NCBI RefSeq assembly: GCF_030848575.1
Contig: NZ_JAVDDX010000003.1
Span: forward strand, 186,001 to 250,000
Source of the DNA: Haloarcula sp. H-GB4
GTDB lineage: Archaea > Halobacteriota > Halobacteria > Halobacteriales > Haloarculaceae
Length of the DNA: 64,000 bases
Direction: 5' to 3'
Of this stretch, positions 5,460 to 34,077 are shown one piece after another; position 1 is the stretch's first letter, and each line of letters begins with the position of its first letter. The notes below the pieces were generated by a model. It was not told where the DNA came from, ran no database searches, and saw only the letters and a program-made list of their open reading frames with translations. The position numbers and the translations under genes were made by a program.

Positions 5460-6077
5460 TTACAGGCTGTCGCGGCGCTCGGTGAACTCGGCGAGATCAG
5501 TATCGGTATCGATATCCCAGTGGACGCCGGGGTCCGAAACCTCGATGAACGCTGTCCGCTCGGTGGTATCGATGAGATCTCGACCGCCGCGGTCGCCGGA
5601 GACAGTGGCGAGCCCATCGAAATGGCAGTTGTCGAAAAGCACCGGATTACCCCGTCTCCCCTCGTGCTCGGGAACAACAACGGTTGCCGTTCCTGTACGG
5701 TACGCTTCAAGAAGCTCCTCGATGGTTTCGACGCGTACGAACGGCATATCGCCCAGCAAGAACAGGACGGCGTCCCAGCCGGCCGAACGGGCGAACTCGA
5801 CACCGTGTCGAACTGACGTACTCTGGCCGGTCGCGTACTCGTCGTTATGCTGAACCGAGAGCGAGAGACCATCCAGCGCTGCAGCGACGGCCACTTTTTC
5901 ATGGCCGAGGACGGCGACAGCGTCCGACAGCGATGACTTGCAGGCGGTTTCGGCCACCTGTCGGACGACTGCTTTCCCATCGATAGTCGCCAGCAGTTTG
6001 TTACCCGACTCGTATCGAGAACCCTGCCCAGCAGCGAGGATGACACCGCCGACTCTGGTCCGATGTTGACCGCTCAT
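5460..6077 (-). CDS. mocA: Molybdenum cofactor cytidylyltransferase-like NTP transferase (MocA)
   Basis: This 205-residue nucleotidyltransferase has the MobA/MocA N-terminal loop (GGVILAAGQGSRYESGNKLL), FLLGDMP as the metal-binding aspartate motif and GRRGNPVLF. MocA transfers CMP from CTP to molybdopterin to give the cytosine dinucleotide used by xanthine-dehydrogenase-type hydroxylases. In SDMH clusters the same family (YgfJ) accompanies yqeB and yqeC, as here. It lies 46 bases after yqeC and 32 before ridA, so co-transcription is likely. Specificity for CTP rather than GTP is inferred from context. Confidence 0.85.
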   Translation of the reverse strand: MSGQHRTRVGGVILAAGQGSRYESGNKLLATIDGKAVVRQVAETACKSSLSDAVAVLGHEKVAVAAALDGLSLSVQHNDEYATGQSTSVRHGVEFARSAGWDAVLFLLGDMPFVRVETIEELLEAYRTGTATVVVPEHEGRRGNPVLFDNCHFDGLATVSGDRGGRDLIDTTERTAFIEVSDPGVHWDIDTDTDLAEFTERRDSL

Positions 6078-6123: not shown

Positions 6124-6906
6124 TCATCGCTGCTCCTCCTCTTGCACATCCGCTGTTGAGACCACCTCACAGACATCCGACGCAAACGATGTGATGACGC
6201 CCCGAGAACACCGCTCTGTCTGTGAAAGCGCGTGGGTGAGCACATCCGTAGCGATACGCCGCTGTGGTTCGGTATCCGCCTTGTTGACTAGCGGTATCAC
6301 AGACGCCTCGGCCGGCGCGTTTCGGAGGCCACCCTCCGGATGCGTGAGCACTATCCCGACAGCCGCCGCAGTAATCGTGTCGCCCACACGGAGGCCAGTG
6401 ATATCAGCGACCCGCTCCGGTCGATGGACCACGTCCGTCGTCAGCGCTTCACCGACGGCGGCGACCGAGGCGACCGGGACGACGTGGGTCGCTGTACTCG
6501 GGACGACTGGCTCCCCGTCGCCAGGCGCTTTGAACTCCCGCTTGCGTGCCCCGTCAGCCTTGACGAGGAGCCAGTCGAACAGTCCGGCATCGGATAGCTG
6601 CTCCACCACACTCGCCTCGAACCCACGGACCTTCCGGTCGACTCGTGCTGGGTTGGGAACCCTCTCACGAGCAACGGCAACTGGCGGGTCGTGGGCTTCG
6701 AGATTGGCGCGCCAATCGTTCGGACCCGTGAGCGTCAGCGGCAGGTCAGGCGGCGGTGGCATCGCCGTCGTCGTCGTGTAACCCACGTCGTACCCCCTGT
6801 CGGTCCCTTCGACAGTCAACTGTCCCATCGCAGTTTTCTTCCCACCGGCCCCGACGAAGGCGACAGCGGCGCTGGAACCCAGGCCCAGCGCAGCAGCCAG
6901 ATCCAT
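6124..6906 (-). CDS. yqeC: SDMH accessory protein YqeC
   Basis: This 260-residue protein has an N-terminal P-loop-like GAGGKKT (residues 19-25), then TTTTAMPPP, LVKADGARKREFKAPGDGEP and PLVNKADTE. This is the pattern of YqeC, a putative NTP-binding factor found almost only with selenium-dependent molybdenum hydroxylases. Its biochemical role is unknown. Insertion of selenium or of the metal cofactor has been suggested for the family. The start at 6906 leaves a 94-base divergent promoter region shared with the tusA-selD pair. It leads the operon yqeC-mocA-ridA-phnDCE. Confidence 0.85.
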   Translation of the reverse strand: MDLAAALGLGSSAAVAFVGAGGKKTAMGQLTVEGTDRGYDVGYTTTTAMPPPPDLPLTLTGPNDWRANLEAHDPPVAVARERVPNPARVDRKVRGFEASVVEQLSDAGLFDWLLVKADGARKREFKAPGDGEPVVPSTATHVVPVASVAAVGEALTTDVVHRPERVADITGLRVGDTITAAAVGIVLTHPEGGLRNAPAEASVIPLVNKADTEPQRRIATDVLTHALSQTERCSRGVITSFASDVCEVVSTADVQEEEQR

Positions 6907-7000: not shown

Positions 7001-7249
7001 ATGGCCCGCGTAGACGTTCGTGGTGAAATCTGTCCCCGGCCGGCACTCATTGTCCGGCGGGCGCTTGCAGACCTCGATACCGGCGAGACGCTCGTCGTGC
7101 GAGGCGATTACCCGCCGGCCGAAGAGAACCTCCGGCGGATGTGTACGACTCACGGTATCGACGTGACAACCGCGGAGACCGCTGGCGAGTCCGACGAGTT
7201 CGAACTCGAACTTCGGGTGACCGAGATGGCGTCGCTATCGGAGGCCTGA
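7001..7249 (+). CDS. TusA/SirA-like sulfur (or selenium) carrier protein
   Basis: This 82-residue protein has the TusA fold signature: DVRGEICPRPALIVRRAL, with the CPxP motif at residues 11-14 whose cysteine carries a persulfide, followed by a two-strand, two-helix pattern. TusA proteins hand sulfur between a cysteine desulfurase and acceptors. In selenium users a SirA-like domain (YedF) is linked to selenium metabolism. Its stop is two bases before the selD start, so the two are almost certainly co-translated. This favours a role in passing selenium or sulfur to the SelD/YqeB system (inference). Confidence 0.88.
   Translation: MARVDVRGEICPRPALIVRRALADLDTGETLVVRGDYPPAEENLRRMCTTHGIDVTTAETAGESDEFELELRVTEMASLSEA
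7240..7244 (+). promoter_or_regulatory. Shine-Dalgarno site deciding the selD GTG start
   Basis: GGAGG lies inside the end of the tusA-like gene, 7 bases before GTG at 7252. This supports that GTG as the selD start over longer in-frame extensions that would overlap the tusA-like gene. Confidence 0.7.
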
Positions 7250-7251
7250 GT

Positions 7252-8292
7252 GTGGGACCCGACGCGGTGACTGACGGTGATGACGAGACAACGCGCCTGA
7301 CGGAGTACACGGAACTCCACGGCTGCTCTTGCAAAGTCGGCCAGAGCGACCTCGATTCGCTGCTCGCCGATGCCGGCCTCACCGGTGAGAGCGACGCGTT
7401 GCTGTTCGGCATCGGTGAGGATGCCGCTGCGCGGAAACTCACTGACGACTTCGCGCTGGTTTCGACGGTGGATTTTTTCACACCTATTGTCGACGGCCCG
7501 TACGACTTCGGCCGTATCGCCGCCTGCAACGCCGCCAGCGATGCCTTCGCCACGGGTGCGGTGGAGAACGTCGACTGCCTGGTCGTTCTCGGCCTCCCGC
7601 GAGAACTAACCGAGAGCGCAGCGCCGATTCTCGCCGGCATGGCCGACGCGCTGGACGCGATGGACGGCGTCATCGCCGGCGGCCACACCATCATGAGTCC
7701 GTGGCCCTTCGCTGGCGGCGCCATCTCAGCGACGGCGCGTCCCGACGCTCTCCTCACATCACAGGGAGCCAGTCCTGGCGACCGGCTCTACCTGACCAAA
7801 CCGCTCGGGACTCAGCCAGCTATGGGGGCGACCCGCGTGACCGACGACCAGTTCGTCGAGACGGTCACCGACGCCACTGAGCGCCCGCTCGACCAAATCG
7901 AGTCGGAGGCCATCGCGTGGATGACGACACCGAACCGGGACGCGGCGCTCGCGTGCCGCGAACACGCGACAGCCGCCACCGATATTACCGGCTTCGGCCT
8001 CGCCGGCCAGAGCCGCGTGGTGGCCGCCCGCTCCAATGTCGGTATCGAACTGACGCACCTCCCGGTCATCGCGGGAACGCCCGCCCTCTCGACGCTTTTC
8101 GGATACGGACTGACTGAGGGTGAGAGCGCAGAGACCAGCGGGGGACTGTTCGTCTCCGTCCCGCCGGCTTCGGCTGACGCCGTCGAATCGGCATTCGACA
8201 ACGCCGGCGTATTCTATCGGGTTGTCGGCCGTGTTACGGCTGGACGCGGTGTCACGATTGACGACCCGGCCATCGAAGAAGTTCGTCGCTAA
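7252..8292 (+). CDS. selD: Selenide, water dikinase (selenophosphate synthetase)
   Basis: This 346-residue cytosolic enzyme makes selenophosphate from selenide and ATP. The active-site loop GCSCKVG (residues 24-30) aligns with E. coli GCGCKIS, keeping the catalytic Cys (C25) and Lys (K28). Downstream are GIGEDAAA, STVDFFTPIVDGPYDFGRIA, the AACNAASDAFATGA segment, AGGHT and ATDITGFGLAGQ, all diagnostic of SelD rather than of the PurM/HypE relatives. The active-site residue is Cys, not selenocysteine. No selA, selB, tRNA-Sec or ybbB is visible in the window, so it looks like an orphan SelD serving the SDMH system. The GTG start has a GGAGG site 7 bases upstream. Confidence 0.95.
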   Translation: MGPDAVTDGDDETTRLTEYTELHGCSCKVGQSDLDSLLADAGLTGESDALLFGIGEDAAARKLTDDFALVSTVDFFTPIVDGPYDFGRIAACNAASDAFATGAVENVDCLVVLGLPRELTESAAPILAGMADALDAMDGVIAGGHTIMSPWPFAGGAISATARPDALLTSQGASPGDRLYLTKPLGTQPAMGATRVTDDQFVETVTDATERPLDQIESEAIAWMTTPNRDAALACREHATAATDITGFGLAGQSRVVAARSNVGIELTHLPVIAGTPALSTLFGYGLTEGESAETSGGLFVSVPPASADAVESAFDNAGVFYRVVGRVTAGRGVTIDDPAIEEVRR

Positions 8293-8309: not shown

Positions 8310-9890
8310 CTACCGCAACCGGAGCACTGCCTCTAGCACGCCACCGCCGAGACACAACGCTTTGTCGGAGACTTTCGTTGGGTCGACAGACTCGCCGCGA
8401 GGGTCGACATCGCCGAGTTTGGTGCTCTCACTGACGCCGAGGCCGCCGTGAACTAAGCCGCGAACCAGTCCATCTATCTCGGTTTCGACCGGCCTATCAC
8501 CGACAGTGCCGACTACGTCGCCGGCTGTGACACTATCGCCGATGGCGACCGCCGGGGTCCACTCGCCATCGGTCGGGGCGCGAAGCACCCGCTCGTGGGT
8601 GTAGCCGCGCCGCTCGCCGGGCTCGCCGTCGTACTCGCTCGCTGCCCCCTCGTAGAACACGCGGCCAAGTTCGTGCCCGCGGTCTGTCTCGACGACCGCG
8701 TCCACGTCCTCGCCGGCCTCGAAACCGGGCCCCATCCCGACCACCACGTCGGCGTCTTCCCGGCGCGTATCGGTGTCGAACGCCCCTTTCGCCATGATCG
8801 CATCAATGAGGACTGCGGCGTCGAGGTCGTCAGCGACAGTCGCCTCGGGGTCGACGAGTACCGGCACGACATCGTCGGCGAGCAGTTCGAGTGCCTCGTC
8901 GATGTCCGCTGCTGCACGGCCAGTGACTCCTTCGACTTCCACCTCGTCTTCGTACAGCGCCGCGCCGAAGGCGACCGCCCGCCGGACGACTGTCGGTTGT
9001 TCGACTTCGGTGACGATAACCGGAAAGCCGGCCTGCTGAAGCCGATAGACGACGCCGCTCCCGAGGTCGCCGCCACCGCGGACGACGACGAGGTCGTCGA
9101 GATTCAGGCGCGTCGCCCGCTCACCGGTGGCGTCATGGCGGTCCATGGTGACCTCGGCGAGAATCGAGAGCGCCACGGCGGCCGGCCCACTCCCGCCGAG
9201 GTCGAGCCCCACCGGTGTCTGGACCCGGCTGAGGTCCCGACGGACGTACCCAGACTCGGCGAGCGAATCGAGCACGTGGTCGGCCTTTGTCTCGCTTGCG
9301 ACGAGGCCAACGTAGCCAGCCTCGCCGTCCAGCGCTGCGGCGACGGCAGCCTGATCGAACGTCCCGCTCCGCGTCGCGACGGCCACGGCTGTCTCTGTCC
9401 CCATCGGCAGGTCACTGAGCGCCTCACCGTAGTCGCCGTGAATCACGTCCGTATCGTCGGGGAACTGCGCCGGGTCGGCGTACGCCTCGCGGTCGTCGAC
9501 CACGGTGACGGCATAGCCCAGCCGCTCGGCCAATGGGGCCAGCTCGGCGCTTATATGGCCGCCGCCGGCGATGTAGAGCCGTGCTTGCCCGCGAACGCGG
9601 TCGATGAACACGTCCATCTCGCCGCCACAGACCATGCCCGTGTTGCCGCCTCGTTCGAGTTCGTACGTCTGGACGCCAGGCTCGTCGGCTCCCGAAAGCA
9701 CTGACCTGGCGTCCTGTACAGCGAGGTGCTCGACCGTGCCGCCGCCGATGGTCCCGTACTCGTCGTCGGCGGTGACGATCATCTTGTCCCCCACGTCCCG
9801 CGGCGCGCTGCCGTCCTTCCGGACGATAGTCAGGAGCGCCGCCGGCTCTCCCCGGGCAGCCAGTTCGTCGAGTCGTTCGAACAGGCTCAT
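8310..9890 (-). CDS. yqeB: Fused XdhC - YqeB (EF2563-type) SDMH maturation protein
   Basis: This 526-residue protein has two parts. Residues 1 to about 255 are XdhC/CoxI-like: RKDGSAPRDVGDKM, GTIGGGTVE, GMVCGGEMDVF with the sulfur-handling Cys, then a Rossmann part (LYIAGGGHISAELAPLA). XdhC binds Mo cofactor and helps make its sulfido ligand. Residues from about 267 to 526 are the YqeB domain (VVVRGGGDLGSGVVYRL, DAIMAKGAFDTDTR, VVGMGPGFEAGEDVDAVVET), a marker of selenium-dependent hydroxylases. In most SDMH gene sets the two are separate proteins. The ATGA overlap with dsrH shows coupling. It converges on selD with a 17-base gap. Confidence 0.88.
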   Translation of the reverse strand: MSLFERLDELAARGEPAALLTIVRKDGSAPRDVGDKMIVTADDEYGTIGGGTVEHLAVQDARSVLSGADEPGVQTYELERGGNTGMVCGGEMDVFIDRVRGQARLYIAGGGHISAELAPLAERLGYAVTVVDDREAYADPAQFPDDTDVIHGDYGEALSDLPMGTETAVAVATRSGTFDQAAVAAALDGEAGYVGLVASETKADHVLDSLAESGYVRRDLSRVQTPVGLDLGGSGPAAVALSILAEVTMDRHDATGERATRLNLDDLVVVRGGGDLGSGVVYRLQQAGFPVIVTEVEQPTVVRRAVAFGAALYEDEVEVEGVTGRAAADIDEALELLADDVVPVLVDPEATVADDLDAAVLIDAIMAKGAFDTDTRREDADVVVGMGPGFEAGEDVDAVVETDRGHELGRVFYEGAASEYDGEPGERRGYTHERVLRAPTDGEWTPAVAIGDSVTAGDVVGTVGDRPVETEIDGLVRGLVHGGLGVSESTKLGDVDPRGESVDPTKVSDKALCLGGGVLEAVLRLR

Positions 9891-10132
9891 ACGAAGCTCT
9901 TGACCTCCCGTTCGACGAGGCGATCAACGACGGCGTCGTAGGATATCCGGTCGATATCCGGCGGTAGCGAGACGCCACGCACGGCCACGTCTCTCGCGAC
10001 TGCTGAGATGGGTGTGTCGATATCCGGAGTGAGGTAGACGCCGTCCTGAATCAGGACGACATGTGCTTCAGGGTCCCCGGCGGCGGTACGCAGTCCGATT
10101 TCTGCCATCGGTTTATCGATGAGATATAGCAT
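9887..10132 (-). CDS. DsrH/TusB-like protein
   Basis: This 81-residue protein begins MLYLIDKPMAE and continues with HVVLIQDGVYLTPD, the short beta-alpha pattern of DsrH/TusB, the smallest subunit of the DsrEFH/TusBCD sulfur-transfer hexamer. It contains no cysteine at all, so it could only be structural here. It follows the DsrF-like gene by 2 bases and overlaps yqeB by ATGA. The neighbourhood links the trio to SDMH maturation rather than to tRNA thiolation (inference). Confidence 0.75.
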   Translation of the reverse strand: MLYLIDKPMAEIGLRTAAGDPEAHVVLIQDGVYLTPDIDTPISAVARDVAVRGVSLPPDIDRISYDAVVDRLVEREVKSFV

Positions 10133-10134
10133 TG

Positions 10135-10488
10135 TCAGAAGTCCAGTGTCTGGTCGGCGTCGCGAATACGGGCGGTGACACGGTCGTCCGACCAGACGGC
10201 CACATCGTCGGCGATTTCGGTCTCGTCAACGCCGCGCTCGGCCATTGCCGCCCCGTCCGCGACCATCTGTCCGTCCTGTTCCACAAGGTCGGCGACGTGC
10301 CCGCTCATGTTGAGCGCCTCGCGGTCGACGGCGTCCCGAGCTCCGTACACGCCGTCTTGGGTGAATATGACGGTCACGTCGTGCATATCGAAGCCGGCCG
10401 CGACGCCGCGGGCGGCGCGCAGTCCTTCTGGGATGTGGACTCGGCCGCACGGGGCGCGAGTGAGCAGTACCACGACATCTCGCTTCAT
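10135..10488 (-). CDS. DsrF/TusC-like DsrE-family protein
   Basis: This 117-residue member of the DsrE/F superfamily shows VVVLLTRAPCGRVHIPEGLRA, HDVTVIFTQDGVYGARDAVD and a C-terminal helical part. It has one cysteine, near residue 14. The ATGA overlap with the upstream DsrE-like gene shows that the three are made together. The family moves persulfide sulfur between carriers. Which member binds selenium or sulfur here is unknown. Confidence 0.75.
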   Translation of the reverse strand: MKRDVVVLLTRAPCGRVHIPEGLRAARGVAAGFDMHDVTVIFTQDGVYGARDAVDREALNMSGHVADLVEQDGQMVADGAAMAERGVDETEIADDVAVWSDDRVTARIRDADQTLDF

Positions 10489-10856
10489 AACGAAACCACC
10501 CGATCGGCCTCGCCGATGATGTCCGCGAGGTCCGGAAGCAGCCCGACCTCGACGCCCTCAGGGTAGTCGGCTGGCGCGTCGATTCCCCGTGCATCGACAC
10601 AGAGCCCACAGCAGATGACTTCCGCCCCGTCTGCGATGAGTTCCTGGAACTTCTCGGTCGGCATTTCGTCGTACAGCCCGCTGTCCGAACAGCCGGGCAG
10701 GGTCTGGTCCGCAACGGGGACGAGCGCGCCGTCGAGGTAGTGGAAGTAGCTCACCTCGTGGCCCTGATCCAGCGCCGCCCGCCCCAGCTCGTAGGCGGTG
10801 CGCCACCGCTCGCTGTCGAAGGGACCCCCTGTCAGCAGAAAGCCGATGTACGCCAT
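10485..10856 (-). CDS. DsrE/TusD-like sulfur (selenium) relay protein
   Basis: This 123-residue protein with a DsrE fold begins AYIGFLLTGGPFDSERW. It carries the catalytic-type cysteine loop VICCGLCVDARG near residues 85-96 and ends in a helical segment. Of the three Dsr-like proteins it is the only one with a cysteine-rich active loop, so it is the likely carrier. A TATA-like TATTAA lies about 30 bases upstream of the ATG at 10856, consistent with a leaderless transcript for dsrE-dsrF-dsrH-yqeB. In other selenium users a TusA and a DsrE domain are joined in YedF. Here they are separate genes on either side of selD-yqeB. Confidence 0.8.
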   Translation of the reverse strand: MAYIGFLLTGGPFDSERWRTAYELGRAALDQGHEVSYFHYLDGALVPVADQTLPGCSDSGLYDEMPTEKFQELIADGAEVICCGLCVDARGIDAPADYPEGVEVGLLPDLADIIGEADRVVSL

Positions 10857-10960: not shown

Positions 10961-13438
10961 TCAATCGTCAGCAGACTGCCCGTCCAGTGCCGCCTTCAGG
11001 TCCGCCGCGGTGAACGGCAACTCGGTCAGCCGAACGCCGACGGCGTCGCGGATGGCATTCGAGAGCGCCGGCGGGACGCCGTTCGTTGGGAGTTCCGCGA
11101 TAGACTTCGCGCCGAATGGACCCGTGGGTTCGTGTGTTTCGACGAGAATCGTCTCCATTTCGGGGTGGTCCGTCGTCCGCGGCATCCCGTACTGGCGAAA
11201 GCCCAGCACCTCCGGGTTCCCGTCCTCATCGAAGGTCAGGTCGCCGCTCGTGGCGTATTCGAGGCTCATGTGTTCGCCGCCCTCTATCTGGCCTTCGACC
11301 AGCGCGGGATTAATAGCGACGCCGCAGTCTGCCGCAAAGACCAGCCTGTTGAGTTCGTACTCGCCGGTCTCCGTATCGACAGTCACGTCGACGAACTGCG
11401 CGCCGTAGGGCGGTGGGCTCTCGTCGGTTGAGTGGTTGCCGTCCCCGAGAATGTGTTCGCGCTCGTCGTCGCCGTAGGTCGCTTCGTAGCCGATGTCCTC
11501 CAGCGATACGCGGTTCCCGGTCCGCTCGCTGTACACGCCGCCGTCGCCGGTGTCGAGCACATCCGGCGGCTCGCCGAGCAGTTTCGATCCCCACTCCAGC
11601 AACCGCTCTTTGGCGTCCTCGGCGGCATTCTTTACTGCGCGGCCGCTGATGTACGTCGTCGAGGAGGCGTACGCCCCGTAGTCGAACGGCGTCAGGTCGG
11701 TGTCGGCGGCGATGACGACAACATCGTCCGGCGTACAACCGAGCACCTCGGCGGCAATCTGGGAGAACATCGTGTCCGCGCCGGTCCCAGTGTCGACGCC
11801 GCCGACCTGCAGGTGGAAGCTCCCGTCTTCGTTCATCTGTATCTGTGCCGCGCCGAGTTCCTTGCCCGCGACGCCGCTCCCCTGGGCGATGAGCGCCATT
11901 CCGACCCCGCGCTTGCGATGGTCTTCGTCGGGTTGTTCGATGCCGTCGTAGTCGATGGCTTCCTTCCCGCGTTGGACACATTCGCGGATGCCACACGAGC
12001 GAATCTCCCGGGTGAACCGGTCACCGTCTTTCAGAATCGCGACGCTCCGGTCGAGGTCGCCCTCCCGGACCGCGTTCTGCAGGCGAAACTCGATCGGGTC
12101 GAAGCCGAGGCGGCGGGCTACCTCATCCATGTGCGATTCAACGGCGAAATGCCCCTGTGGCGCGCCGTAGCCCCGCATGGCCGCCCCCATCGGGAGATTC
12201 GTATGGACCACATCCCCGGAAAATCTGACGTTCGGGACCCGTGGATAGAGGGGAAGCGGCTTCGTTCCAACGTTGTTCGCGACGGTCATGCCGTGGGTGC
12301 CGTAGGCCCCCGAGTTCGACAGCGTGTAGAGGTCCATCGCCTCGATGTCGCCGACGTCTGTCACTACGGTCCGCATCTGCATCTGCATCGGGTGCCGAAA
12401 GCGAAGCGCGGTGAACTCCTCCTGGCGGCTCATCTCCAGTTTGACCGGCCGCTCGGCCGCCAGATGCAGTGCGAACGTTATCGGCTCGATTGCCATCTCC
12501 TGTTTCGACCCGAACCCGGCACCGATGCGGGGCTTCTTCACCCGCACATCGCGAATAGGCACGTCGAACAGGTGCGCTATCTGGCGACGGGTGTGAAAGG
12601 GAACCTGTGTCGCCGTAATAAACACGTGCCGATTGTCCTCGTCGGTGTAGGCGATAGTCGCGTGCGGCTCCGGGACGCAGTGGGACTGGTATGGCGTTTC
12701 CCACTCCGTCTCGATGACGTGTCGCTCCTCGTCGTCGCTCGCCTGTTCGAACGCGCCCTCTACGTCACCGAGTTCGCCCTCGAAACCAGATTCGAGATTT
12801 TTACTGTAATCAGCCCCCGACTGTTTGTTTTCTACGTCATCAGCCTCGAACAGTTGCGGGGCGCCCTCGTTGAGGGCTTCTTCTGGGTCGAAGACGGCAT
12901 CCAGCTCTCGGTACTCGACTTCGATTTTCCGTGCAGCGCGGTCGGCTGTCTCCGCGTCGTCAGCCGCCACGGCGGCGACCGGGTCGCCGACGAAACGGAC
13001 GTGTTCGCGCAACACTTTCAGATCCCACGGGCTCGGCTCGGGGTAGGACTGGCCCGAACTGGAGTACAGTTTGTCCGGAACCACGTCATCGAACGGTGTG
13101 ATGACGGCGTTGACGCCGTCCATCGTCTCGGCGGCGCTTGTGTCGACCGATTCGACGTAGCCGTGGGCGATGTCGCTGCGAACCACCTTTCCGTGGGCGA
13201 GGTCCGGAAACCGGTCGCGGTAGTCCGCCGTGTAGCGGGCTTGCCCGGTGACGATTTTCCGTGCGTCGTCTTTCTCTTCGTCCACGGTGATGGCGTCGCG
13301 CTCGGCTTCGGGCTTCCGGTCAGGTTCGCGTGCCGCGCCCGTCGCTGACTCTCTGTCGGCTTCGGCTGGGTCCGATCCATTCCTCTCTGTCCCCTCTGGT
13401 TGCTTGCTCGTCTCCCGTACCCGGTCGGAATCGCTCAC
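10961..13438 (-). CDS. Molybdenum hydroxylase large (Mo-binding) subunit 1, xanthine dehydrogenase family
   Basis: This 825-residue catalytic subunit carries Mo-pterin and hydroxylates an N-heterocycle, probably a purine. An acidic, low-complexity N-terminus of about 40 residues is followed by the a/b hammerhead domain (KIVTGQARYTADY). The Mo-binding part has GAGFGSKQEM, AMRGYGAPQG, VGGVDTGTGADT, YGAYASSTTYISG and the C-terminal GPFGAKSIAE with the catalytic Glu position. There is no AYRCSFR loop, so it is not form I CO dehydrogenase. The start is a GTG that overlaps the TGA of the [2Fe-2S] gene. There is no FAD subunit next to it. SDMH context suggests a labile selenium ligand on Mo (inference). 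Confidence 0.9.
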   Translation of the reverse strand: MSDSDRVRETSKQPEGTERNGSDPAEADRESATGAAREPDRKPEAERDAITVDEEKDDARKIVTGQARYTADYRDRFPDLAHGKVVRSDIAHGYVESVDTSAAETMDGVNAVITPFDDVVPDKLYSSSGQSYPEPSPWDLKVLREHVRFVGDPVAAVAADDAETADRAARKIEVEYRELDAVFDPEEALNEGAPQLFEADDVENKQSGADYSKNLESGFEGELGDVEGAFEQASDDEERHVIETEWETPYQSHCVPEPHATIAYTDEDNRHVFITATQVPFHTRRQIAHLFDVPIRDVRVKKPRIGAGFGSKQEMAIEPITFALHLAAERPVKLEMSRQEEFTALRFRHPMQMQMRTVVTDVGDIEAMDLYTLSNSGAYGTHGMTVANNVGTKPLPLYPRVPNVRFSGDVVHTNLPMGAAMRGYGAPQGHFAVESHMDEVARRLGFDPIEFRLQNAVREGDLDRSVAILKDGDRFTREIRSCGIRECVQRGKEAIDYDGIEQPDEDHRKRGVGMALIAQGSGVAGKELGAAQIQMNEDGSFHLQVGGVDTGTGADTMFSQIAAEVLGCTPDDVVVIAADTDLTPFDYGAYASSTTYISGRAVKNAAEDAKERLLEWGSKLLGEPPDVLDTGDGGVYSERTGNRVSLEDIGYEATYGDDEREHILGDGNHSTDESPPPYGAQFVDVTVDTETGEYELNRLVFAADCGVAINPALVEGQIEGGEHMSLEYATSGDLTFDEDGNPEVLGFRQYGMPRTTDHPEMETILVETHEPTGPFGAKSIAELPTNGVPPALSNAIRDAVGVRLTELPFTAADLKAALDGQSADD

Positions 13439-14013
13439 TGATCGCCCTCCATGCAATTGCAGTTCTTGAATGAACACTCGGTCACAGCGGCGGCCCCGCC
13501 GTCGTTATCGACTGCTTGTCCACCGTCGGCGGCGACCGCTGTCCCGCTGTCCATCCGCTCAGCGGCGTCTAGCACCGCTTCGACAATTTTCTTGTAGCCA
13601 GTACACCGACAGAGATTGTCCGACAGCGCTTCCCGGACCTCTTGTTCGGTCGGGTCCGGGTTCTCCGCAAGTAGCGCCATCGAGCGCATAATCATCCCCG
13701 GAATACAAAACCCACACTGCAGCGCAGTATTGTCGACGAATGCCTGTTGCACCGGATGCAGGTCGTCCTGTTCGCCCAGACCCTCGATCGTCTCGACCGA
13801 TGCGTCCCGTACTTTCGTCACCGGTTCGACGCAGGACTTCACTGGCTCGCCGTCGACGTGCACCGTACAGAAGCCGCACGCGCCAGTGTCGCATCCCCGC
13901 TTCGCCCCAGTGTACCCGTTCCGTCGAAGGATATCGAGAAGCGAATCGGACTTCGATGCTTCGACCGTCCGTTCCACATCGTTAATTTCCAGTTCGATTT
14001 CCATATGGCTCAT
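13435..14013 (-). CDS. Molybdenum hydroxylase [2Fe-2S] subunit 1
   Basis: This 192-residue electron-transfer subunit has the two expected clusters. The plant-type cluster uses GCDTGACGFC plus a later SC. The helical one uses LQCGFCIPGM and CRCTGY. It passes electrons from the Mo site to an unknown acceptor. Beyond the usual 160 residues there is an extra acidic tail ending CSFKNCNCMEGD with three more cysteines, not standard for the family. The start is at 14013 (MSHMEIELEIN) or at the internal ATG at 14004. The large subunit overlaps its stop. Confidence 0.9.
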   Translation of the reverse strand: MSHMEIELEINDVERTVEASKSDSLLDILRRNGYTGAKRGCDTGACGFCTVHVDGEPVKSCVEPVTKVRDASVETIEGLGEQDDLHPVQQAFVDNTALQCGFCIPGMIMRSMALLAENPDPTEQEVREALSDNLCRCTGYKKIVEAVLDAAERMDSGTAVAADGGQAVDNDGGAAAVTECSFKNCNCMEGDQ

Positions 14014-14130
14014 CAGCTCGCTGGCTATGTCAGGTACATGACGAACAGAACGGTAAATAGCTATCGCGGATTTGTGATATGGCACGCCGACACACCGGCA
14101 CTGTAGCCGTGACTGTCCACGCACTCCGAT

Positions 14131-16581
14131 TCAGATTTCACGCTCGTCCAGTTTTGACCTGATTTTCTCGGCGGTGATGGGCATCTCTCGGACTCGGACG
14201 CCGACAGCGTCCCGGACGGCGTTTGACAGCGCCGGCGGGACTGTGTTAGTCGGAACTTCGGCGACCGATTTCGCGCCGAACGGACCGGTTGGTTCGTGGG
14301 TCTCGACCAGAATCGACTCGATGGGTGGCGTCTCGGTCGCCGACGGTAGTCCGTACTCGTCGAAGTCAGCTATCTCTGCCCGTCCCTCGTCATCGAGCGT
14401 GATCCCCTCACTGACGGCCATCTCGTAGCTCATGTGGTTCGCACCCTCGATCTGGCCCTCGGCCATGCCGGGGTTGATCGCGACGCCGCAGTCGACCGCG
14501 ACGACCAGTTTGTGGACCTCAAACTCGCCGGTGGTCTCGTCAACTGTCACGTCGGCGAACTGGGCAGCAAAGGGCGGGGGACTCTCTTCGGTGCAGTGGG
14601 TCCCCTTCCCCAGGATGTGTTCGCGTTCGTCGTCGCCGTAGGCGGCCTCATAGCCGATATCTTCGAGTGTGACCGAATCGCCGCTCGCTTCGCTGTACAC
14701 CGTTCCGTCGCCAGTTTCCAGATCACCGACCGGCTCCTCAAGCAGTTTCGATCCCCAGTCGAGAATCCTTTCTTTCGCGTCCTCTGCGGCCTTCTTGACC
14801 GCCATGCCGCTGATATACGTCGTCGAGGAGGCGTACGCCCCATAGTCGAAGGGCGTTACATCCGTATCGGAGGATTTGACGATTATGTCGTCCTCGTCAC
14901 AGCCCAGTACTTCGGCGGCGATCTGGAGGAACGCTGTGTCAGCGCCTGTCCCAATGTCGACGCCGCCGACCTGCAGGTGGAAGCTTCCGTCCTCGTTCAT
15001 CATTATTTGGGCGGCCCCGAGTTCGTCACCGGCGACGCCGGTCCCCTGTGCGGACAGCGCCATTCCGATGCCGCGGTGCAAGTGGTCTTCGTCGGGCTGT
15101 TCGAGGTCGTCGTAGCCGATAGCGTCTTTCCCACGCTCGATACACTCGTTGAGGCCACATGAGCGGATACGGCGGTTCGCTCCCTCTCCACCCATCATCC
15201 CCGCGATCTCGTCGAGGTCGCCCACCTCCATGTGGTGCCGCCGCCGGAATTCGATTGGGTCGAGATCGAGGTCGCGGGCGACCTCGTCGAGATGCCCTTC
15301 TAGCGCGAGCGTGCCCTGTGGTGCGCCGTAGCCACGCATTGCACCGGTCTGTGGCGTGTTCGTATGGACGATATCGGCCTCGAAGCGAGCGTTTGGTACC
15401 TTCGAGTACAGCGGCATCGGCTTGCTGCCGACGTTGCCCGCGACGGTCATGCCGTGGCTGCCGTACGCGCCGGTGTTCGACAGGGCGTAGATGTCGATGG
15501 CCTTGATGTCGCCGTCGTCGGTCACGGCCGTCTTCGCTTTGACCTTCATCGGGTGGCGCGAGCGCATCGCGTAGAACTCCTCCTCGCGGCTGGCTTCGTA
15601 TAGGACCGGGCGGTCAGTAGCGAGCGATAGTGCGAGCGGAATCGGCTCGACGACCATTGCCTGTTTCCCGCCGAAACCGCCGCCAACGCGCGGCTTGGTC
15701 ACCCGGATGTCGCGAATGGGAATATCGAACAGGTGGGCGAGCTGTCTCCGGGTGTGGTTTGGCACCTGCGTACTGGTGATGAGGACGTGGCGGTCGTCCT
15801 CGTTCGTGTAGGCCAGCGACGTGTGTTTCTCGACGTTGGCGTGGGATTGCCGAATCGTCTCCCATTCAGTCTCGTGCACGTGGGTGTCGCCGTCGAGTGC
15901 TGCATCCACATCGCCGAGTTCGCCCCCGATGTGGGCCATCCGGTTGCGGTCGTAGTCGTTGCCGACGATCTCGTTCTCGACCTCGCTGCCCTTGAACAAC
16001 TGCGGCGCGTCTTCGTCGAAGGCGTCCTCCGGATCGGTGACGTAGTCGTAATCCTCGTACGACACCTCGATAGCCTCGACGGCGGCGGTCGCGGTCGCCC
16101 GGTCTTCGGCTGCGACGGCGGCAATCGGGTCGCCAATGTAGCGGACGTGCTCGTTCAGCACGTGCATGTCCCACGGGCTCGGTTCGGGATAGGACTGCCC
16201 GGCGCTGGTGTATTTTGCGTCCGGCACTGCGTCGGACTCGGGTGTCAGGACCGCGTCGACGCCGTCCATCGCCTCGGCCGCGCTCGTGTCGATGTCGGTC
16301 ACGCGGCCGTGTGGGATGTCGCTCCGGACGACTGCCGCGTACGCGAGGTCGGGATACCGTTTCTCGTAGTCGGCGGTGTACTTCGCTTGCCCGGTGACGA
16401 GCTTTCTGTCGTCGTACTTCTCCGTCCGGTGGGAGACGCTGTCGCGCTCGTCGGGGGCCTTGTCGTTGTTCTCAGGCTCGTCCCATTCGAGCGGGTGCTC
16501 TTCGAACCGTTCGTCTTCGACAGTCTCTGACTGTGAGGCCGTTCCGCCGTCGGCCTTGGCTGTCTCGTCGTCGTTACTCAT
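14131..16581 (-). CDS. Molybdenum hydroxylase large (Mo-binding) subunit 2, xanthine dehydrogenase family
   Basis: This 816-residue paralogue of the subunit at 10961 shares the same architecture and an acidic N-terminal extension of about 60 residues. It has KLVTGQAKYTADY, VGGGFGGKQAM (the standard FGGK form, where paralogue 1 has FGSK), AMRGYGAPQG, VGGVDIGTGADT, YGAYASSTTYISG and GPFGAKSVAE. The two probably act on different or successive substrates, such as hypoxanthine and xanthine, but nothing in the sequence fixes this. It starts at 16581, overlapping its [2Fe-2S] partner by 8 bases. About 117 bases separate it from module 1. Confidence 0.9.
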   Translation of the reverse strand: MSNDDETAKADGGTASQSETVEDERFEEHPLEWDEPENNDKAPDERDSVSHRTEKYDDRKLVTGQAKYTADYEKRYPDLAYAAVVRSDIPHGRVTDIDTSAAEAMDGVDAVLTPESDAVPDAKYTSAGQSYPEPSPWDMHVLNEHVRYIGDPIAAVAAEDRATATAAVEAIEVSYEDYDYVTDPEDAFDEDAPQLFKGSEVENEIVGNDYDRNRMAHIGGELGDVDAALDGDTHVHETEWETIRQSHANVEKHTSLAYTNEDDRHVLITSTQVPNHTRRQLAHLFDIPIRDIRVTKPRVGGGFGGKQAMVVEPIPLALSLATDRPVLYEASREEEFYAMRSRHPMKVKAKTAVTDDGDIKAIDIYALSNTGAYGSHGMTVAGNVGSKPMPLYSKVPNARFEADIVHTNTPQTGAMRGYGAPQGTLALEGHLDEVARDLDLDPIEFRRRHHMEVGDLDEIAGMMGGEGANRRIRSCGLNECIERGKDAIGYDDLEQPDEDHLHRGIGMALSAQGTGVAGDELGAAQIMMNEDGSFHLQVGGVDIGTGADTAFLQIAAEVLGCDEDDIIVKSSDTDVTPFDYGAYASSTTYISGMAVKKAAEDAKERILDWGSKLLEEPVGDLETGDGTVYSEASGDSVTLEDIGYEAAYGDDEREHILGKGTHCTEESPPPFAAQFADVTVDETTGEFEVHKLVVAVDCGVAINPGMAEGQIEGANHMSYEMAVSEGITLDDEGRAEIADFDEYGLPSATETPPIESILVETHEPTGPFGAKSVAEVPTNTVPPALSNAVRDAVGVRVREMPITAEKIRSKLDEREI

Positions 16582-17128
16582 CGCAGTCACCTCCACAGCA
16601 ACTGGTCGACTCGTCTCCATGCTGTGCCACAGTGACCGGGTGGCCGCCGTCTGCGGCGACAGACTGCTCCCCCTGCATTCGTTCTGCTGCATCCAGAACA
16701 GCTTCGACAGGCTTCTGATAGCCGGTGCAGCGACAGACGTTGTCGTCCAGTGCCTCCCGGACTTCCTGCTCGGTTGGGTCGGGATTGGAATCCAGCAGTG
16801 CCACCGCCTGGATTACCATTCCCGGGATACAGAACCCGCACTGGACGGCAAAGTTGTCGACGAACGCCTGTTGCACCGGGTGCAGGTCTGCCTGTGTCCC
16901 GAGCGCCGCAACGGTCTGTATCTCACTCCCGTCGGCGTCTGTCGCCTCCATCCCGCAGGCCATCCGTACTTCGCCGTCGACGAATATCTTCGATGCACCG
17001 CAGGTTCCGCCGTCGCAGCCACATTTTACGTCGATGTAGCCGTGCTGTCTCAAAACCGTCGCCAGGTCATCTCCTGACCCGGCTTCGACTATCGTCCGCT
17101 CGCCGTTGATTGTGAGTTCAATATCCAC
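16574..17128 (-). CDS. Molybdenum hydroxylase [2Fe-2S] subunit 2, with a Cys-to-Ser change in the first cluster
   Basis: This 184-residue subunit pairs with large subunit 2. The second cluster is intact (VQCGFCIPGM, CRCTGY). In the first, the family pattern GCxxGxCGxC reads GCDGGTCGAS, so the third ligand is Ser46 (codon at 16991-16993) although C38, C43 and C58 remain. An extra Cys at 36 could substitute. A Cys-rich tail (STSCCGGDCDE) follows the normal end. GTG at 17128 is chosen because GGAGG lies 7 bases upstream (17136-17140 on the minus strand) and the protein then begins at the usual DIELTINGE. ATG codons at 17152 and 17164 are alternatives. Confidence 0.88.
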   Translation of the reverse strand: MDIELTINGERTIVEAGSGDDLATVLRQHGYIDVKCGCDGGTCGASKIFVDGEVRMACGMEATDADGSEIQTVAALGTQADLHPVQQAFVDNFAVQCGFCIPGMVIQAVALLDSNPDPTEQEVREALDDNVCRCTGYQKPVEAVLDAAERMQGEQSVAADGGHPVTVAQHGDESTSCCGGDCDE

Positions 17129-17135
17129 AGAGTAC

Positions 17136-17140
17136 CCTCC
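17136..17140 (-). promoter_or_regulatory. Shine-Dalgarno site for the [2Fe-2S] subunit 2 GTG start
   Basis: On the minus strand GGAGG is followed by 7 bases and GTG at 17128, the same arrangement as for selD. This decides the start over the upstream ATGs. Confidence 0.6.
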
Positions 17141-17152
17141 AGTTTTCGGCAT

Positions 17153-17358
17153 GCATACGAACACACGCCTGTTAGTGAACAGGTGTGCGACACCATCTCA
17201 TATATGTATGGTTCACAGGTGTTGATCGCCTGTTGCCAGACGAAGTTACGGGCATGGGCCACCACAAGACAACTGGATGACACAGGTGCGACAGACGAGG
17301 TTGTTACTGTGTGACGTGTGCCATATGTGTGGTGTTCACTCGCTGAAAACTGAACAGT
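17153..17358. promoter_or_regulatory. Promoter region of hydroxylase module 2 with ACAGGTG/CGCCTGT repeats
   Basis: A TATA-like CATATATG lies near 17199-17206. Around it are repeated words. One inverted repeat has 10-base arms with one mismatch (CACGCCTGTT at 17164-17173 and AACAGGTGTG at 17178-17187). A second pair is ACAGGTG ... CGCCTGT at about 17214-17232. A further ACAGGTG lies at about 17282. The clustering around a TATA box suggests binding sites for a regulator of this operon. No gene is visible here. Confidence 0.5.
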
Positions 17359-28232: not shown

Positions 28233-29639
28233 TCAATCGTCGTCGACCGGCGGCGCGCCCGCTCCCGTCTCGACAGGATCGGGTTCCAGTCCTGCGGTGT
28301 ACTCGGTCGGCCCCGTCCCGACACTCCCGCCGGGGAACACAATATTGAGAATGAGGGCGGCCATCCCCCCGGTGACAAGTGCGGACCCGAACAGCGTCTG
28401 TACCTCAGACGGGAAGTTCTGGAGGATTTCGGGGCGGAACGCGACACCGAGGCCGAGCGCCATCGACATCGCGAGGATGGTCGAATTGCGGTGGTCTAAC
28501 TCGACGTTTTGCGTGATGAGGCGTGCGCCCGAGGAGAATATCATCGCGAACAGGATGAGCGCGCCGCCGCCCAGCACGGCATCAGGCATCGCCGAGACGA
28601 CTGCCCCAACTTTCGGGACAAACCCGAGTGCAAGCAGCACGACGCCCCCGATGCCGGCGACGTACCGGCTGGCGACGCCGGTGAAGTTCACGAGCCCGAC
28701 GTTCTGCGAGAACGACGTGTTCGGGAGCGCGTTGAACACTGCACCGAAAACGCTCATCACGCCATCGGCGACGAGGCCACCACGGATTTCCTCCCGCGTG
28801 GCGTTCCGACCGGTTGCGGATACCGTCCCAGAGATGTCCCCGATAGTTTCCATGCCGGTAATGATGTAGAGGAAGGCTACGGTGACGATGGCGCTCGGCT
28901 CGAACGCGAGGCCGTATTTGAGCGGAACGGGAACCGTCACCCAGCCGGCAGCGGCGACCGCCGAGAGGTCAACCACGCCCAGTGCGAGCGCGGCGAGGTA
29001 GCCGACGATGATGCCCACGAACACGCTGATGACGCGGAGAAAGCCCTCGAAGAACTGGTTCAGCCCGACAGTGACGACTAGAACGAGCCCGGCGAGGCCG
29101 AGGTTGACGAAGGAGCCGTATCCCTCCGCTGACGGACCGGCCGAGGCCCCCGCAGCGTAGTTCATTCCCGTGGGGATGAGCGTTAGTCCGATGAGCATCA
29201 CGACGATGCCGGTGACAAGCGGGGGGAAGAACCGCCGGAACCGGTCGAACGAGACACCCATGATGATCTCGACCGGCGCAGCAAGCAGTGATGCGCCGAA
29301 CACGGCGGCGATACCGAACTGATTGCCGATGCCGATAAGCGGCCCGAGAAACGCGAAACTGGTCCCCATGACGACCGGGAGCCTCGCGCCGACGGGGCCG
29401 ACCGGGTACGCTTGGACCATGGTCGCGACACCGGCGACGATGAGTGCCATCTGGACGAGAAACGTCGTCTCCCCCGTGACGGAGCCGACGGCCCCCGCAA
29501 GGATGAGTGGGGGCGCGACGTTGCCCAGAAACATCGCGAGCACGTGCTGGATGCCGAGTGGGATGGCCTTCCCAAGCGGCGGTTTGTCTTCGATATCGTA
29601 CAGTACGACTGACTGCTGGTCTGTCTCTGGACCGCTCAT
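28233..29639 (-). CDS. NCS2-family uracil/xanthine (urate-type) permease
   Basis: This 468-residue transporter has about fourteen hydrophobic segments. NCS2 landmarks are present: PLGIQHVLAMFLGNVAPPL, a QAYPVGPVGARLPVVMGTSFAFLGP segment read as two adjacent pieces, and a TM8-TM10 region with IITGMETIGDISGT and LPNTSFSQNVGL. The TM8 Glu and the N-x-S motif in TM10 mark substrate-binding positions in xanthine and urate permeases such as UapA and YgfU. Start 29639 avoids a hydrophilic, unlike-family extension. It converges on the LLM gene. In this island xanthine or urate is the likely cargo. Confidence 0.9.
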   Translation of the reverse strand: MSGPETDQQSVVLYDIEDKPPLGKAIPLGIQHVLAMFLGNVAPPLILAGAVGSVTGETTFLVQMALIVAGVATMVQAYPVGPVGARLPVVMGTSFAFLGPLIGIGNQFGIAAVFGASLLAAPVEIIMGVSFDRFRRFFPPLVTGIVVMLIGLTLIPTGMNYAAGASAGPSAEGYGSFVNLGLAGLVLVVTVGLNQFFEGFLRVISVFVGIIVGYLAALALGVVDLSAVAAAGWVTVPVPLKYGLAFEPSAIVTVAFLYIITGMETIGDISGTVSATGRNATREEIRGGLVADGVMSVFGAVFNALPNTSFSQNVGLVNFTGVASRYVAGIGGVVLLALGFVPKVGAVVSAMPDAVLGGGALILFAMIFSSGARLITQNVELDHRNSTILAMSMALGLGVAFRPEILQNFPSEVQTLFGSALVTGGMAALILNIVFPGGSVGTGPTEYTAGLEPDPVETGAGAPPVDDD

Positions 29640-29871
29640 GGGACGCCATCCAGCCCCTATCTTTTCAATCCACCTACTAGAATCCTTATACCAATATATG
29701 TGTTTAATTCTGTCCGAGATCATTATCCGTATGTCTCATTAAAATTTGATACTCGTTGGATGTGCGACCTGATATACTTTGGAACTGCAGCTCCCCCGAC
29801 TCGACAGTGTGTCGAAACCGCTCGTAAAACGACAGCGCGCTGGCCCGTGTCGTGGCAACTGTCCGGTGGCG

Positions 29872-32778: not shown

Positions 32779-34077
32779 GTGATACTGAACGCAGGGACGC
32801 TCATCACGATGGACGATGAGCGCACGGTCCGGTCCGAGGCACACGTCGTCGTCGAAGATGGTGAAATCGTCGCTATCGAGGACGGGTACGCGTCCGGTGC
32901 TGACGTGATAGATGCCACTGACGAGGTCGTCATCCCGGGATTGGTGAACTGTCACACCCACATGTACGCGCTCCCGATCCGCGGTGCGCCGCTCGCTGCG
33001 TCACCCGAGAGTTTCTACGAATCGCTCGTCGACATCTGGTGGAACGTTGACGAGGCGTTTACCGAGCGCGACGCTCGCCTGTCTGCACTGGGCTCCTCTG
33101 TCGAGATGCTCCAGAGCGGCGTCACTACCTTTTGTGACAACTACTCCGGGCCGAATACGCTGCCGGGCGGTCTCGACGCCGTCGCAGAGGGTGTCGCACA
33201 GACCCCGATCCGTGGGATGATTTCCTTCGAGACGACAGCCCGGAACTCTGAAGCCCAGGCCAGAGACGGAATCGCGGAGAATCAGCGATTCATCGACGAA
33301 GCGGAAGACGAGTACGACACTGTATCCGGCCACTACTGCCTCCACACGCTGTTTACCAACACCGAAGACATCGTTAGGGAGTGTGTTGACAGGGCTACTG
33401 ACGACGACCGCCCAATCCAGATCCATCTTGAAGAGGGGCTGGTCGACGTTCATGAATCAATCGCCGACTACGGGAAACGACCGGTACCAGCGTTAGAAGA
33501 CATGGGCTTTTTCGACGCCGAAGTCATCGCTGCTCACTGCGTCCATTCTACCGAGTCCGAGATCGAAATACTCGCAGCAAACGATGTTTCCGTCGCCCAC
33601 AACCCGTATTCCAACATCAATAACGCCGTCGGTATCGCCGATGTCGAAACCATGCAAGCCCACGAGATGACAATCGGGCTCGGTGACGACGGATGGGATC
33701 CGGATATGTTCGAGACCATGCGTTCAGCCGTCGGTATCCACAACCTCAAGCAGCGCAACCCGAGCGGCTTCGACATGGCCACTGCTCTTGAATGGGCGAC
33801 AATCGGCAGTGCGGCGGTGCTGGGAATGGAGGACGCTGTCGGCAGTATCGAGGTCGGTAAACGCGGTGATTTCGTCACGTTGGATCTGGGGCCAAACCCG
33901 GTGTTGGACGGGAGTGCGCCCTACTACGTCGTCAGCGCCGCAAGCCGTGCGGACGTTACCCGGACAATTATCGACGGAGAGCCTGTGTATGATCAGACAT
34001 CAGGTATCACCGGCGTCGATGATTCGGATATGACTGCTGTCGGCGATGCGAGTGCCGAACTCTGGGAACGGTTGTAG
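32779..34077 (+). CDS. ssnA: SsnA-type aminohydrolase
   Basis: This 432-residue amidohydrolase has features of SsnA, an aminohydrolase found in SDMH/purine clusters: NCHTHMYALPIRG, DIWWNVDEAFTERD (SsnA has LWWRLDRAL), SFETTARN, AHNPYSNINNAVG and IGLGDDGWDPDMFETM. Metal ligands HTH, QIHLEE, AAHCVH and the late DD are in place. The start is GTG at 32779, 29 bases after TTTTAG, so the message is probably leaderless. Its presence beside the hydantoinase strengthens the link of the whole island to SDMH-dependent purine degradation. The exact substrate of SsnA is not settled here. Confidence 0.85.
   Translation: MILNAGTLITMDDERTVRSEAHVVVEDGEIVAIEDGYASGADVIDATDEVVIPGLVNCHTHMYALPIRGAPLAASPESFYESLVDIWWNVDEAFTERDARLSALGSSVEMLQSGVTTFCDNYSGPNTLPGGLDAVAEGVAQTPIRGMISFETTARNSEAQARDGIAENQRFIDEAEDEYDTVSGHYCLHTLFTNTEDIVRECVDRATDDDRPIQIHLEEGLVDVHESIADYGKRPVPALEDMGFFDAEVIAAHCVHSTESEIEILAANDVSVAHNPYSNINNAVGIADVETMQAHEMTIGLGDDGWDPDMFETMRSAVGIHNLKQRNPSGFDMATALEWATIGSAAVLGMEDAVGSIEVGKRGDFVTLDLGPNPVLDGSAPYYVVSAASRADVTRTIIDGEPVYDQTSGITGVDDSDMTAVGDASAELWERL

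Follow-up and report, generated by a model that had tools for sequence, protein, structure and literature searches.

How the labile selenium of selenium-dependent molybdenum hydroxylases (SDMH) reaches these enzymes is a standing question, in which YqeB is the accessory factor with a clear genetic phenotype: in Clostridioides difficile, whose protein shares the YqeB family and the SDMH setting with the one described here, a ΔyqeB strain responds to xanthine and uric acid as a selD mutant does (PMC11448449). XdhC has been studied in Rhodobacter capsulatus, where it binds Mo-MPT, carries one conserved Cys (C82), and holds the Moco while the latter is sulfurated (PMC2997495). R. capsulatus XdhC, proven for sulfur and not for selenium, and 2we8 of M. 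smegmatis belong to the XdhC family, have a CGG motif like that of the Haloarcula protein, and lack a YqeB half. Conversely, YqeB of the Enterococcus faecalis EF2563 type is of the same family and SDMH setting, but its plasmid copy is a stand-alone protein of 276 aa without an XdhC half.

Proteins with both halves are also known, and the XdhC-YqeB fusion was already published in 2008. Haft and Self (2008; PMC2276186) described the orthologue of Haloarcula marismortui as a fusion, called the XdhC fusion of YqeB "frequent", and inferred from it that YqeB functions at XdhC/Moco maturation. Zhang et al. (2008; PMC2432076, Table 1) marked positions 248032-249609 of pNG700 with "(F)", for fusion genes, in the HP1 (YqeB) and XdhC columns; Aeromonas hydrophila bears the same mark. 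The family namesake, E. coli K-12 YqeB (b2875, NP_417351; 541 aa), has been discussed as an XdhC homologue (PMC2997495) and likewise consists of XdhC followed by TIGR03309 (417 bits). An earlier note on the DNA analysed here, made from the sequence alone, had taken XdhC and YqeB to be normally separate genes, which is contradicted by the fused architecture of E. coli YqeB and by the Haloarcula fusion published in 2008; a rare or new fusion is rejected on the same grounds. The note had also read the fusion as a clue to the function of YqeB, which is sensible, as the fusion hints that YqeB acts on the XdhC-bound cofactor, but this hint has been in print since the work of Haft and Self (2008). 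Of possible further use are the likelihood that the fusion arose more than once, the prediction of a YqeB fold that lacks the carrier lysine, and the Dsr/Tus-like neighbours in haloarchaea, which could donate the chalcogen.

The fused gene and its product

The stretch analysed (the window) comprises 64,000 nucleotides of Haloarcula sp. H-GB4. In it, positions 8310..9890 of the minus strand form a single unbroken ORF of 526 aa, which NCBI names selenium-dependent molybdenum cofactor biosynthesis protein YqeB. The assignment of the first half to XdhC and of the second to YqeB, proposed earlier from the motifs GTIGGGTVE, GMVCGGEMDV, GGGDLGSGVV and MAKGAFDTDTR, all of which are found in the ORF, agrees with a domain search. 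PF02625 (XdhC_CoxI; residues 11-76, 69.1 bits) and PF13478 (XdhC_C; residues 105-247, 122.8 bits) match above their Pfam cut-offs, and TIGR03309 (YqeB, NCBIfam) matches residues 268-525 over positions 1-256 of its 256-position profile with 369 bits against a cut-off of 220. The XdhC half thus spans residues ~1-258 (9117..9890, minus strand), where homology to 2we7/2we8 is also found, and the YqeB half residues 268-526 (8310..9089, minus strand). Both the window protein (123.9 bits) and E. coli YqeB (111 bits) miss the cut-off of the XdhC equivalog TIGR02964 (161.6 bits), so that the first half is to be called an XdhC-family domain and not an XdhC equivalog. Cys88, in the GMVCGG motif of this half, is invariant across the 22 fused sequences aligned and, judged by the common motif, may be the counterpart of C82 in R. 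capsulatus XdhC. A search of a defence-system library gave no match.

The protein is confirmed as an XdhC-YqeB fusion in one polypeptide. A missed stop codon or a frameshift was rejected as its source, the ORF being intact and equally long in other Haloarcula genomes. The H. marismortui orthologue on pNG700 is annotated as a single 1581-nt gene, yqeB, and the fusion ORF is open in every other haloarchaeal copy found, so that an artefact of sequencing or frame is excluded. H. hispanica also has this gene. This orthologue, pNG7241 (RR_RS03335), is 94.9% identical across 526 residues, lies in the same neighbourhood, and shows no difference of note. Identity to E. coli YqeB is ~39-40% overall, as estimated through close Escherichia/Citrobacter copies.

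The full-length structure prediction (pLDDT 91.6, pTM 0.73) has two well-folded halves and a linker, residues 254-260, that is predicted to be flexible (pLDDT < 50). The best structural match of the XdhC half is 2we8. When the YqeB half was modelled alone with AlphaFold2 (pLDDT 94.2, pTM 0.90), it was predicted to consist of a Rossmann-like part and a barrel-sandwich part like that of biotinyl carriers, the latter comparable with BCCPs at Z 10-11 across ~65 residues. No solved structure for the YqeB half was found by sequence (best E = 0.019) or as a full-length structural match, which does not prove that none exists. A similarity of YqeB to AccB had been remarked in the C. difficile paper (PMC11448449), which prompted a test of the half as a carrier. 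Although the predicted barrel has the fold of biotinyl/lipoyl carrier proteins, no conserved carrier Lys occurs in the barrel hairpin (YqeB-half positions 186-222) of 49 sequences, and a role as biotin or lipoyl carrier was rejected for this reason. The alignment of the YqeB half also contains no universally conserved Cys, and this half therefore offers no evident residue to carry selenium by itself.

The locus and the genome around it

The fusion gene lies in a locus that holds an SDMH accessory set, with selD, yqeB, yqeC and molybdenum hydroxylase genes together. Convergent with it are selD for selenophosphate synthetase (7252..8292, plus strand; TIGR00476, 272 bits against a cut-off of 125; GTG start inferred from the length of the H. 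marismortui gene) and a gene for a TusA-like sulfur carrier with a CPRP motif (7001..7249, plus strand; PF01206, 62 bits). Beyond these, on the strand of yqeB, are yqeC for an SDMH accessory protein (6124..6906, minus strand; TIGR03172, 197 bits against a cut-off of 73; start likewise taken from the H. marismortui gene length) and a gene for a MocA/YgfJ-like nucleotidyltransferase (5460..6077, minus strand; TIGR03310, 146 bits, below its cut-off of 186; PF12804 above cut-off). Genes for yqeC and mocA also adjoin yqeB in E. coli K-12, but no selD, TusA or DsrE/F/H is annotated in the surrounding 30-kb stretch, unlike in the window.

Upstream of yqeB, all on the minus strand, come genes for three small proteins, similar to DsrH/TusB (9887..10132; PF04077, 22.6 bits, just below the cut-off of 24.4, with orthologues annotated DsrH/TusB), DsrF/TusC (10135..10488; PF02635, 36.7 bits) and DsrE/TusD (10485..10856; PF02635, 72.9 bits). 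Next come two subunit pairs of the xanthine dehydrogenase family, arranged in tandem (10961-17164, minus strand), each with a molybdenum-binding and a [2Fe-2S] member. The first pair comprises the molybdopterin-binding subunit of a putative SDMH (10961..13477; PF02738, PF20256, PF01315) and its [2Fe-2S] partner (13435..14124; PF00111, PF01799), both with uncertain start codons; the second comprises another molybdopterin-binding subunit (14131..16692; NF043082, 667 bits, below the cut-off of 780) and another [2Fe-2S] subunit (16574..17164; PF00111, PF01799). No gene for an FAD subunit is annotated in the orthologous stretch of H. marismortui. Farther along the window are genes for a xanthine permease (28233-29723, minus strand) and an SsnA-like aminohydrolase (32779-34077, plus strand; TIGR03314, 257 bits, below the cut-off of 455), and a hydantoinase/allantoinase-like protein is encoded within the window as well; the presence of these genes around the selenium cluster fits purine breakdown.

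In the whole genome, no second XdhC_CoxI domain was detected, so the only XdhC domain found is that of the fusion. The genome gave no match for selenouridine synthase and none above cut-off for SelB, which makes its selD an 'orphan'. Among 16 haloarchaeal genomes checked, the six that carry YqeB all have a SelD above cut-off, whereas the ten from the same family that lack YqeB do not; selD and yqeB thus co-occur.

Proposed working and possible source of selenium

The window gene is very probably the Haloarcula version of the fused YqeB already known, a two-domain SDMH maturation factor that would work as follows. First, the XdhC half would bind and protect the molybdenum cofactor, with Cys88 beside the metal or serving as a chalcogen carrier. 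Second, the equatorial ligand would be exchanged for selenium, or for sulfur that is later replaced by selenium, with SelD as the selenium source. Third, the YqeB half, with its Rossmann-like part and its barrel devoid of the carrier lysine, would give the selenium-specific step or dock the selenium donor. Finally, the finished cofactor would be inserted into the neighbouring enzyme of the xanthine dehydrogenase type. This working is the likeliest since Moco is sulfurated on XdhC, Cys88 is present, and yqeB and selD mutants of C. difficile share a phenotype; the single XdhC domain in the genome and the co-occurrence of selD and yqeB are supporting context. We infer both a supporting role of the YqeB half in the selenium-specific step and the chemistry that it would contribute. 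The literature examined contained neither biochemical work on the fused protein nor a selenium measurement on any haloarchaeal hydroxylase. In C. difficile, yqeB functions as a separate gene, which shows that the fusion is not indispensable.

The selenium might reach the protein by another route. DsrF- and DsrH-like genes lie immediately upstream of yqeB in all 12 haloarchaeal loci, with a DsrE-like gene in every one whose sequence extends far enough, and TusA adjoins selD in 11 of the 12, the sequence of the twelfth being too short; in the window, the DsrH-like gene even overlaps the start of yqeB by 4 nt. This conserved haloarchaeal DsrE-DsrF-DsrH/TusA gene set around the fusion appears to be a new, if modest, finding. 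Zhang et al. (2008; PMC2432076) mention the TusA (SirA-like) gene, and a discussion of the Dsr trio beside yqeB was not found in the literature examined, which is a partial selection. The arrangement suggests that the trio and TusA are a selenium or sulfur donor of the sulfur-relay type for the haloarchaeal fused protein. It has a stronger version, in which the fused protein is chiefly an acceptor of sulfur or selenium relayed by a TusDCB-like DsrE-DsrF-DsrH complex and TusA, instead of a direct user of selenophosphate; this we consider rather unlikely. A phmmer search showed no DsrE/F/H-like proteins beside bacterial yqeB, so that such a relay is no general requirement.

Distribution and origin of the fusion

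A survey of the fusion, as the earlier note had proposed, was made on 93 YqeB rows, 80 of them taken from a scan across species genomes of bacteria and archaea and the others from separate searches; since those 80 are the top query matches out of > 550, the proportions do not amount to a census. In this sample 38 rows are fused and 55 split. Both forms are common, the fused one being fixed in the sampled Halobacteria (12/12) and almost fixed in Gammaproteobacteria (23/24). The gammaproteobacterial exception is one Psychromonas assembly with a stand-alone YqeB (L084, 3926-4783) within an otherwise fused clade, where the XdhC half may have been lost or the assembly or frame may be broken. Another fused group, in which the XdhC part is longer, consists of three spirochaetes (L076, 2981-4783; L085, 1747-3549; L106, 3-1799). 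The split form is found in Firmicutes, Chloroflexota, Actinomycetota and two other archaeal genomes of the phylum of Haloarcula, often with xdhC adjacent. Within 393 genomes drawn from this phylum, YqeB scored above cut-off in eight, namely the two with split genes and six haloarchaea, in each of which it is fused.

The trees favour repeated fusion. In the YqeB-domain tree, the haloarchaeal clade branches within a set of split Chloroflexota genes (97/87 support), away from the gammaproteobacterial clade, and the fused/split label needs 5 changes, of which at least 4 are forced by well-supported branches. A tree constrained to unite the haloarchaeal fusions with the gammaproteobacterial ones is 42 log-likelihood units worse, a difference that is only borderline (AU p = 0.053). 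Their XdhC halves are also apart in the XdhC-half tree, where long branches meet and give long-branch warnings. More than one fusion event is therefore the better reading of these sequences and probable, a single origin being not firmly rejected. XdhC comes first in all fusions sampled. A broader proposal, which we hold tentatively, is that at least two independent fusions (in Halobacteria, in Gammaproteobacteria and perhaps in spirochaetes), always with XdhC first, mean that both halves act jointly on one cofactor, and that a DsrE/F/H-TusA relay would in addition feed the haloarchaeal fusion with selenium or sulfur.

The fusion may also be neutral, side-by-side genes having been joined without functional change, with the halves acting independently, XdhC sulfurating the cofactor and YqeB acting elsewhere. 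Split genes are frequent and often lie side by side or with a single gene between them (L035, L046, L053, L060, L066, L105, L109, L110, L112), the linker is predicted to be flexible, and the whole protein has a lower pTM than the YqeB half modelled alone. However, probable repeated fusion in separate lineages, in one invariable order, and near-complete retention in Halobacteria and Gammaproteobacteria speak against a neutral event, which we likewise consider rather unlikely.

XdhC itself also varies in domain order. A reversed form, with the Rossmann part first and the CoxI part last, is encoded beside split yqeB in four loci (L041, 4847-5926; L109, 2828-3994; L110, 4814-5827; L099, 4144-5817), and the three spirochaete genomes have a second XdhC gene of reversed domain order just downstream of the fusion.
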